From Nitrosopumilaceae archaeon (GTDB taxonomy: Archaea; Thermoproteota; Nitrososphaeria; Nitrososphaerales; Nitrosopumilaceae), in contig UYNY03000031.1 in assembly GCA_900620265.3 (NCBI GenBank), positions 85,312-135,585 on the forward strand: a stretch of 50,274 bases of DNA, in the 5' to 3' direction. The notes below the pieces were generated by a model. It was given only the letters and a program-made list of their open reading frames with translations, did no database searches and was not told the DNA's origin. Of the stretch, positions 23,150 to 25,615 are shown piece after piece. Each line of letters begins with the position of its first letter. Positions within the stretch are counted from its first letter, which is position 1. Both the position numbers and the translations under genes were made by a program.

Positions 23150-24874
23150 GTGGAGTTCAAGGGGAAGACGGCACTGGTGACGGGGGGCGGCACCGGGATC
23201 GGCAGGACCGTGGCGTCCGCGTTTGCAGAGCGCGGCGCGGGGGTCGTCCTGCTGGGGCGGAGGCGGGAGCCGCTCGAGGAGGCGGCCGCCGACATCAGGT
23301 CAAGGTGGGGCGTCCCGGCCAGGGTCTTTGCCGGAGTCGACGTGGCCGACGGGGGCGCCGTCGACCGCGTCTTTGCGGAGCTCGAGGCGGCGGGCGAGGG
23401 CGTCGACTATATCATAAACAACGCCGGGGTCTCAGGACCGGTCAGGTGCTTTGTGAGCACGCCGCTTGGCGAGTTCAGGGACGCCGTCGCCATCCACCTG
23501 ACCGGCTCGTTCTGGTGCGCCGTGCGCGGGCTTCCCTCCATCAGGAAGGGGGGCAAGATAATCACGATATCGACGTTCTTCACGGAGGAGAGGCCGCTCG
23601 AGCAGAGGCCGTACAGGTTCAGGAGCCCGTACACGGCGGCGCAGGGCGCAAAGAACCGCCTTGCAGAGGCGCTCTCGTGGGAGCTTGCGGACAGGGGGAT
23701 CGCGTCAATAGCGACCAACCCCGGGCCCGTACACTCTGACAGGATCTACAAGACGGTATACCCAAAGGCGGCGCTCGAGTTCCTCAGGGCCGCCGGGTTC
23801 GAGGGGGTGGATCCGGCCGGCGTCGCCGGGGCCGGCGCGGAGCTGCTCCCGCTGCTCGGCGAGTCTGACGGGACCGTCCGGGACGGGATAGCCGCCGCGT
23901 CCGGCAGGCTCGGCATCGGGGAGGACGTCCTCACAAGGATGCTTGAGAAGATATCCACCATAGCGGAAAAGGTCCAGTCAAACACGTCGCGCATGATACA
24001 GGACGGCCAGTTCCTCACGCAGGCCCAGGTGGCAGAGACGGTGCTGTGCATCTGCGGGGACGGCATCTCGGCGATACTGAACGGCAGGGTGGTGCCCGGC
24101 GACAGGGTCTCATACCCCGTCAGGGCGCACGTCGGGGCGGCGGCGCCCCCGGTCCCGCCGCAGAGGTTCGGGACGGTCCTCGTCACGGCCGATGCCGTGG
24201 ACGGGGCCGGCGCCTCGCTTGCAGAGCACCTGGCGGGCCACGTATCGGGGAACGGGGGCAGGGCGGTCTGCGCCGTGTCGGGGTCGGCATCCGCGGACAT
24301 CAGGGACCGCCTTGCCGGCTCGGTCGGCGCCGAGGCAGTCGATCTTGCAGACGAGGGGGCCGTCGACGCCCTGCTCGGCAGGGCCTCCGGCGGCGGCCGG
24401 ATCCAGGCGGCCGTCCACATCACGGGCGGGCCGCCCGAGAGGCCGCTCTCGGAGACCGGCAGGGACGAGTGGGACGCCCTGGTGGCAAGGCTGGTCACCA
24501 CGCCGGCCACCATAGCCCAGAGGGCGCTCGAGGCGCAGGTGCACGGCGGCGGCGCGGATCCCCGCCTCTACAGGGATGCCCGCGGCGCGGTGCTGATCGT
24601 GGGGCCGGGGCTTCCCGTCGGGAAAAAGACGGCCGGCGCCCAGAGGGCCCGCGCCGAGGTGTTCAGGGGGGCGCTGAGGCCGTTCACCGCCACCGTCAAC
24701 CAGGAGCTCTCAGAGGTGCTAGGGTCCCGCGCGAGGGTCTTTACGGTCCTTCCCGGCACGGTATCCGGCGCGGAGCCGGACGACTCGCGCGTGGCAGCGG
24801 CGCTCGACTTTGCCGTCTCGGATGACGCCCCGTCGTCCCCCGTCGTCACGTTCTGCGTCGACGAGTCAAGGTGA
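23150..24874 (+). CDS. two-domain SDR oxidoreductase, malonyl-CoA-reductase-like
   Basis: A 574-aa product made of two Rossmann SDR domains. The N-terminal domain (about 1-330) has the cofactor motif TGGGTGIG at 11-18, NNAG, ISTFF, SPYTAAQGAK and NPGPVHSDRIYKTV. The canonical YxxxK lysine is Gln, with Lys at +7. The C-terminal domain (about 335-574) is a degenerate SDR lacking the glycine motif. From memory, the tandem-SDR layout and the PGP-x2-SDRI segment recall the N-terminal half of Chloroflexus malonyl-CoA reductase (malonate semialdehyde reduction). A role in the 3-hydroxypropionate/4-hydroxybutyrate cycle is therefore possible. The GTG at 23150 is about 27 nt from GTTAAATAG; the longer frame upstream is antisense to other genes. 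Confidence 0.8.
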   Translation: MEFKGKTALVTGGGTGIGRTVASAFAERGAGVVLLGRRREPLEEAAADIRSRWGVPARVFAGVDVADGGAVDRVFAELEAAGEGVDYIINNAGVSGPVRCFVSTPLGEFRDAVAIHLTGSFWCAVRGLPSIRKGGKIITISTFFTEERPLEQRPYRFRSPYTAAQGAKNRLAEALSWELADRGIASIATNPGPVHSDRIYKTVYPKAALEFLRAAGFEGVDPAGVAGAGAELLPLLGESDGTVRDGIAAASGRLGIGEDVLTRMLEKISTIAEKVQSNTSRMIQDGQFLTQAQVAETVLCICGDGISAILNGRVVPGDRVSYPVRAHVGAAAPPVPPQRFGTVLVTADAVDGAGASLAEHLAGHVSGNGGRAVCAVSGSASADIRDRLAGSVGAEAVDLADEGAVDALLGRASGGGRIQAAVHITGGPPERPLSETGRDEWDALVARLVTTPATIAQRALEAQVHGGGADPRLYRDARGAVLIVGPGLPVGKKTAGAQRARAEVFRGALRPFTATVNQELSEVLGSRARVFTVLPGTVSGAEPDDSRVAAALDFAVSDDAPSSPVVTFCVDESR

Positions 24875-25615
24875 GGCGAGCGCCCCGTACAGCAGGCGGG
24901 CCGCGGCGGCGGCCATCATGACGGCGGCAAGCAGCACCAGCCTCCCGTCACGGACGCGCCCCGCAATCTTTGATCCTGCAATCCCGCCGGGGACGGCGCC
25001 GGCCGCCAGCAGGAGCGCCTGGTACGCGTCGGCGTGGCCGAGGTACGCGTGGGCGGCCATCCCGGCAGCCGACGCCAGCATCAGCGCCGCAAGCGAGGAG
25101 GGGACGGCCTCCCCCATCCGCATCCCGGCCGCGCAGACCAGGAACGGCACGAATATGACGCCGCCGCCGATCCCAAAGAACGCCGAGGCGGCGCCCGCGC
25201 AGACCCCGGCCGGCACCCCCAGCGCGACCAGGGCGGGGGTGCCGAGGCGGCGCCTGCCCATCTTCCCCCTCGCGACAAGGTACGCGGCAGAGGCGCACAG
25301 CACGGCCCCGAACAGGATCTGGAACTCCGGCGGCGCCACCGCCGAGGAGGCGTGGGCGCCCGCGACCGCGCCCGGCGCCGCGGCGGCCCCGAGCATGAGC
25401 CCGGGCGCCAGCGGCCCGCGCCGGCGGGCCCCGGAGACTACGGCCGAGGCCGAGCTGCCGAGCGCCGCGGAGAGCCCGTTGGAGGCGGCAAGCGCCGGCG
25501 GGAACCCCAGCACGGAGAGCACCGGCACCGTCACGATGCCGCCCCCCAGCCCCGCCGCGGACCCGAGCAGCCCCGCTGCGAGCCCGAGCGGGACCAGCCA
25601 GAGGTGCTCTATCAG
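24866..25615 (-). CDS. TauE/SafE-family permease with non-canonical start
   Basis: About 249 aa with seven or eight membrane helices and two GxGGG repeats (GLGGGIVTVPVL near residue 27; FGIGGGVIFVPFL in the second half), the hallmark of the TauE/SafE anion exporter family. The first in-frame ATG/GTG/TTG (GTG at 25532-25534) would delete the first helix and repeat. The complete domain can only start at CTG 25613-25615 or the adjacent ATA, 15 nt after the in-frame TAG of the upstream gene. It overlaps the SDR gene by 9 nt tail to tail. Confidence 0.8.
   Translation of the reverse strand: MIEHLWLVPLGLAAGLLGSAAGLGGGIVTVPVLSVLGFPPALAASNGLSAALGSSASAVVSGARRRGPLAPGLMLGAAAAPGAVAGAHASSAVAPPEFQILFGAVLCASAAYLVARGKMGRRRLGTPALVALGVPAGVCAGAASAFFGIGGGVIFVPFLVCAAGMRMGEAVPSSLAALMLASAAGMAAHAYLGHADAYQALLLAAGAVPGGIAGSKIAGRVRDGRLVLLAAVMMAAAAARLLYGALASP

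Follow-up and report, generated by a model that had tools for sequence, protein, structure and literature searches.

A tandem-SDR protein of ammonia-oxidizing archaea with kinship to Chloroflexus-type malonyl-CoA reductase is a candidate for the missing malonyl-CoA reductase of their carbon-fixation cycle

We propose that a 574-residue tandem-SDR protein, encoded in a 50,274-nucleotide stretch of DNA from a Nitrosopumilaceae archaeon (the window), is the missing malonyl-CoA reductase (MCR) of ammonia-oxidizing archaea (AOA); it is the strongest candidate to date, and we give the assignment an even chance of being right. Its membership in the MCR group is well supported by fold, tree and substrate residues, and its family, domain layout, residue conservation and distribution come directly from computation.

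Thaumarchaea fix CO2 by a 3-hydroxypropionate/4-hydroxybutyrate cycle. Extracts of Nitrosopumilus maritimus show the activities of both malonyl-CoA reductase and succinyl-CoA reductase, for which no genes have been assigned (PMC6038301; PMC6964070), and malonyl-CoA reductase is missing from the markers listed in 2026 for the Nitrosopumilus variant of the cycle (PMC12894919). According to the Nitrosocaldus paper, the malonic-semialdehyde reductase of N. maritimus is the characterized Fe-ADH Nmar_1110 (PMC5797428); as that enzyme, of a family unrelated to the MCR-like protein, already accounts for the next step, malonyl-CoA reduction is the one that remains. The Sulfolobales malonyl-CoA/succinyl-CoA reductase, of the aspartate-semialdehyde-dehydrogenase type, catalyses the step proposed here with an unrelated fold. 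The ASD/ArgC family has two members in AOA and likewise two in their non-AOA relatives, so there is no extra crenarchaeal-type MCR among them. The Nitrosocaldus paper states that a homologue of the bifunctional enzyme of Chloroflexus was not identified and that SDRs of Ca. Nitrosocaldus cavascurensis, ~30% identical to Caur_2614, might be malonic-semialdehyde reductase candidates (PMC5797428); these are the nearest prior hint, given in its main text without a tandem family, motif analysis or distribution. Among the main texts of freely readable papers searched, up to 2026, none names this tandem SDR as malonyl-CoA reductase or assigns the step to any other AOA gene.

The reading frame begins with a GTG (23150), runs uninterrupted for 574 codons and closes with the stop at 24874; its start position is common to the homologues, which share an N-terminus of the M(L)KFQxK type (Table 1). 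Full-length identity is ~51–62% to other Nitrosopumilaceae and 42–48% to other families, far beyond chance. Pfam finds adh_short (PF00106) at residues 6–197 (E = 1.5e-34) and, over the 574 residues, only SDR and Rossmann-type NAD-binding families; PF02774, the family of the Sulfolobales-type, ASD-like MCR, is absent, and the second SDR escapes the search. An NCBIfam search of the protein gave no family at cut-off, the SDR matches listed lying far below theirs. The second SDR is visible in an AlphaFold2 model (built from 48 sequences; pLDDT 87, pTM 0.88), in which SDR1 is followed by a helical extension (~201–326) and then by a degenerate SDR, and it is covered by the fold matches. A second model, of a Nitrosotenuis homologue, has the same layout (pLDDT 88). 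Catalytic SDR, helical extension and degenerate SDR make up the layout of the MCR group, as seen in the AlphaFold2 models and in Foldseek alignments spanning 600+ columns. An earlier note on this DNA had described a 574-residue SDR–SDR protein here, and the reading frame, the model and the fold matches agree with it. Each chain holds one such unit, unlike the bifunctional full-length MCR, which has two (~1,220 residues).

Table 1. Features of the MCR-like gene, its product and its convergent neighbour (positions in the window).
Feature	Position	Strand	Basis
MCR-like tandem-SDR CDS	23150..24874	+	ORF, GTG start, 574 aa
SDR1, catalytic Rossmann domain, aa 1-200	23150..23749	+	Pfam PF00106; GGGTGIG nucleotide motif; NADP-contacting positions R37, D64
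Active-site block, aa 139-168	23564..23653	+	T142, Y155xxR158xxY161, Q165, K168; invariant in 95 distinct homologues
PGPVHSDRI, aa 191-199	23720..23746	+	R198 = RfxMCR R215 (N-half), R785 (C-half), CfxMCR R773
Helical extension between SDR1 and SDR2, aa 201-326	23750..24127	+	Model secondary structure
SDR2, degenerate non-catalytic SDR-fold domain, aa 327-574	24128..24871	+	Model, fold matches, conservation
TauE/SafE-family transporter, convergent neighbour	24866..25534	-	Pfam PF01925

Foldseek comparison with the PDB ranked MCR chains alone, rather than unrelated SDRs, as the top 25 matches of both models, spanning the whole tandem, with E-values of 1.5e-24 to 6.9e-18 for the window protein and 6.7e-25 to 4.0e-19 for the Nitrosotenuis homologue. 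The first matches outside MCR were a generic single SDR (E = 2.7e-15, TM 0.32) and 2et6 (E = 1.3e-18, TM 0.55), which, being another tandem SDR, served as an unplanned control for the ranking. Full-length MCR was also best in a single-sequence search of the PDB (8hjw at 126 bits and 8hi4 at 121, the next SDR reaching 84) and in a profile search (170 and 165 bits against 94). Sequence score alone is no proof of kinship, because part of this lead reflects the presence in MCR of two SDRs, each of which matches; single MCR domains score 75–90 bits by profile, comparable to good generic SDRs. It is the predicted fold, and not the sequence score, that establishes kinship with MCR, and a TM of ~0.7 at 15–20% identity shows kinship, not substrate.

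In a tree of the catalytic SDR domains of AOA and the MCR halves, to which 22 further SDRs of AOA and their relatives and a single SDR from the PDB were added, the AOA proteins and both MCR halves formed one clade (support 99/94, and 92/90 after removal of the active-site motif columns), a grouping to be taken with caution in view of the long branches in the SDR tree. Identity as a generic SDR was ruled out by the fold ranking, the tree and the two arginine motifs described below; the resemblance to the Chloroflexus enzyme that the earlier note had pointed out thus holds in sequence, fold, tree and active-site residues.

RfxMCR binds malonate/MSA through a YXXRXXY motif, and its contacts with NADP, malonyl-CoA or malonic semialdehyde include T165/S731, Y172/Y743, R175/R746, Y178/Y749, R215/R785, R616 and D651, besides two arginines that bind malonyl-CoA, R799 of the ED and R1164 of SDR4 (PMC10470521). 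Counted along printed alignments, the first seven positions correspond in the AOA protein to T142, Y155, R158, Y161, R198, R37 and D64, in that order. All seven are unchanged across the 95 distinct homologues, so that seven of eight MCR contact residues are invariant. R158 and R198 occur together in none of 23 generic SDRs, and the PDB matches include the CfxMCR-C variants Y731A and R773A/Q, altered at the sites equivalent to Y155 and R198. The PGP...SDRI segment picked out earlier is PGPVHSDRI. Around the active site, ~60% of columns are invariant; residues 145–152, the loop directly before the active-site tyrosine, are predicted with low quality in both models, as expected for a substrate loop modelled without ligand.

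The sole exception among the contact residues is the catalytic lysine (K182/K753), which is Gln165 here. The active-site stretch reads YRFRSPYTAAQGAK, with Tyr161, Gln165 at +4 and Lys168 at +7, and all three are identical in the 95 homologues; for this reason, sequencing error or a shifted alignment can be dismissed, and of the two explanations offered earlier for the altered YxxxK the fixed substitution is real and the alignment shift falls away. MCR-C has the same pair in reversed order (Lys at +4, Gln at +7). As far as sequence goes, the protein fails as a canonical MCR catalyst, since of the Ser/Thr-Tyr-Lys triad (YxxxK) T142 and Y161 are present and the lysine is replaced by the invariant Q165. 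The RfxMCR-C mutant K753A is inactive (PMC10470521), which makes substitution of K168 for the lost lysine the weakest part of our argument.

Substrate, direction of reaction, cofactor and the part played by K168 we infer as follows. NADPH would bind at the GGGTGIG Rossmann site of SDR1, contacting R37 and D64, and Y155, R158 and R198 would hold the free carboxylate of malonyl-CoA. With the thioester carbonyl polarized by T142 and Y161, hydride transfer would give a hemithioacetal, which would break down to CoA and malonic semialdehyde. Lying one helical turn past the usual position, K168 could stand in for the absent +4 lysine in orienting the cofactor and relaying protons; SDR2 would have a structural role and might serve to close the substrate pocket.

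A carboxylate site of this kind raises the matter of chain length. The YxxR motif together with R198 could be expected to accept any short dicarboxylyl-CoA, and in Metallosphaera one enzyme carries out both malonyl-CoA and succinyl-CoA reduction. The characterized members of the MCR-type SDR group, to our knowledge, use C3 substrates, which makes it distinctly unlikely that the protein serves AOA as succinyl-CoA reductase, whether for that substrate alone or, as in Metallosphaera, for malonyl-CoA as well. In favour of such a role, the succinyl-CoA step too is without an assigned gene in N. maritimus (PMC6038301).

Malonyl-CoA reduction, our preferred reading, has also to be weighed against the reaction of the other MCR half. 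The N-half of MCR converts malonic semialdehyde to 3-hydroxypropionate; the C-half is CoA-acylating and reduces malonyl-CoA. The window protein shares with MCR-C (CfxMCR-C and RfxMCR-C; PDB 8a30, 8hi5 and 6k8s) the fold of SDR, helical extension and pseudo-SDR, YxxRxxY, PGPxxxxR, the NADP-site arginine and aspartate, a similar active-site loop length and, in the other order, the Lys/Gln pair at +4/+7. It differs in being a free-standing 574 residues against ~650, in having ~125 against ~176 residues of extension after the PGP motif, and in its catalytic Thr where MCR-C has Ser. With MCR-N (CfxMCR-N and RfxMCR-N; PDB 8aew, 8hi6 and 6k8v) it shares the tandem SDR at a similar total length, YxxRxxY, and the catalytic Thr and PGPxxSDRI, the two features that lean toward the N-half; MCR-N has a +4 Lys in place of Gln, a ~9-residue insertion (109–120) that is missing from the AOA protein, a loop before PYxxR shorter by ~6 residues and a shorter helical extension. 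The AOA extension is thus intermediate in length; it ends in a conserved DRVxYPV, and 24% of its columns are invariant.

Structure is even-handed, with a TM of ~0.7 to both halves, and a topology test found grouping with the N-half or with the C-half statistically equal (p-AU 0.506 and 0.469). The earlier note's likening of the protein specifically to the N-terminal half is not borne out by this test, and both the profile score (87–90 bits for the C-half against 75–76 for the N-half) and the loop lengths, the long loop before PYxxR resembling the C-half, point the other way. A malonic-semialdehyde reductase, performing the N-half reaction, is therefore unlikely, the more so as Nmar_1110 already does this job in N. 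maritimus and families f1 and f8 (see below) carry both genes. In its favour are a length near that of MCR-N (~550–572), Thr142 in an ‘ST’ pair, PGPxxSDRI, the finding that RfxMCR-N is the best single fold match of the Nitrosotenuis model, and the presence of the gene in families f2 and f3, which are without the Fe-ADH type (PMC5797428 for that type).

With the motif columns removed, the N- and C-halves pair together (97/83; 86/51 with those columns) and the AOA proteins fall outside the duplication; the window protein is best read as a third, undivided MCR branch outside the Chloroflexus N/C duplication. That position, the active-site features of both halves and the Nitrosocaldaceae lacking Fe-ADH, which it would explain, might suggest an undivided, ancestral-like bifunctional unit taking malonyl-CoA through malonic semialdehyde to 3-hydroxypropionate. 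Given the equal N- and C-half placements and the separate malonic-semialdehyde reductase that mesophilic AOA retain, we consider a two-step enzyme very improbable. The fuller form of the preferred assignment, in which the protein is the missing MCR of all AOA, an undivided unit that branched off before the N/C duplication, with a relocated lysine (YxxxQxxK) and possibly performing both reductions in lineages without Fe-ADH, is a tentative one, falling somewhat short of even.

Conservation among AOA, which the earlier note had put forward as a check, is borne out. With AmoC (PF04896) as the AOA marker, the gene is present in 43 of 61 related genomes, among them all 35 with AmoC; the other 18, spread over thirteen further families in the order, have neither the gene nor AmoC. 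A class sample had it in 184 of 250 genomes, exclusively in families f1, f2, f3 and f8, and nearly always as a single full-length copy in each genome; the listed f1 genomes without it are four, all drafts 86–93% complete. Among 300 genomes sampled from the phylum, no carrier belonged to a family other than those of AOA, and of 249 relatives on GTDB contigs the best 80 are, by name, AOA or unclassified thaumarchaeal or archaeal MAGs. Plasmids gave only single generic SDR matches and viruses no matches. The gene is restricted to the AmoC-bearing families and present in all major AOA groups examined. Other markers were set aside: Pfam AMO (PF02461) fails to recognize archaeal AmoA, and the HpaB/4HB-dehydratase type and the carboxyltransferase occur so widely across the class that they do not discriminate.

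The Fe-ADH type of malonic-semialdehyde reductase accompanies the MCR-like gene in f1 and f8 and is not found in f2 or f3. Four genomes of f2 and f3 (G037, G053, G038 and G054) have the MCR-like gene without any strong Fe-ADH (PF00465) match. Family f2 is very probably Nitrosocaldaceae, because most of the member genomes have two HpaB genes and those tested lack Fe-ADH, as published for N. cavascurensis (PMC5797428).

The MCR-like gene lies outside any carbon-fixation cluster, which counts against the preferred assignment. It is paired with the TauE/SafE gene at 73 of 83 AOA loci, members of f2 and f8 included, and this neighbour, which could hint at sulfonate chemistry, together with the loss of the +4 lysine, might indicate a dead SDR pair or one employed differently, in a regulatory or structural role or on another carbonyl substrate. 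The neighbour is convergent and forms no operon, however, and the nucleotide-binding residues, the Thr, the Tyr and both substrate arginines are invariant in all 95 homologues across several families, as are 60% of the columns near the active site; we hold a dead or repurposed pair to be improbable.

SDR2 is otherwise poorly conserved, yet its helix at residues 499–520 (window 24644–24709), RAxxEVFRGALRPFxxTxxQEL, is nearly invariant and may make a dimer or substrate-pocket contact. At 84 of 109 AOA loci, an ORF of ~150 residues lies on the same strand a few bases downstream of the MCR-like gene (for example, L086:9767-10219 and L123:4413-4859). It looks hotdog-like by eye, matches no Pfam family, gave no convincing hit in the PDB and was rejected as a partner; neither the window nor Cenarchaeum (L120) has it next to the MCR-like gene, and it is not essential to the argument. 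One record titled Nitrososphaeraceae (L082:8001-9773; ~56% identity to the window protein, ~150-residue ORF present) looks mislabelled, because its homologue and neighbours are of Nitrosopumilaceae type.

AOA are among the most abundant autotrophs in sea and soil and use an unusually energy-efficient CO2-fixation cycle. With a single AOA-specific gene that combines the MCR fold with its substrate-binding residues, the question of the malonyl-CoA step becomes testable with one recombinant protein, and the fixed change of Lys to Gln raises that of how an SDR functions without the canonical lysine. If the assignment is right, AOA would owe the malonyl-CoA step to an MCR-type SDR and Sulfolobales theirs to an unrelated enzyme; the gene would provide a marker, and its product a compact natural enzyme of interest for producing 3-hydroxypropionate.
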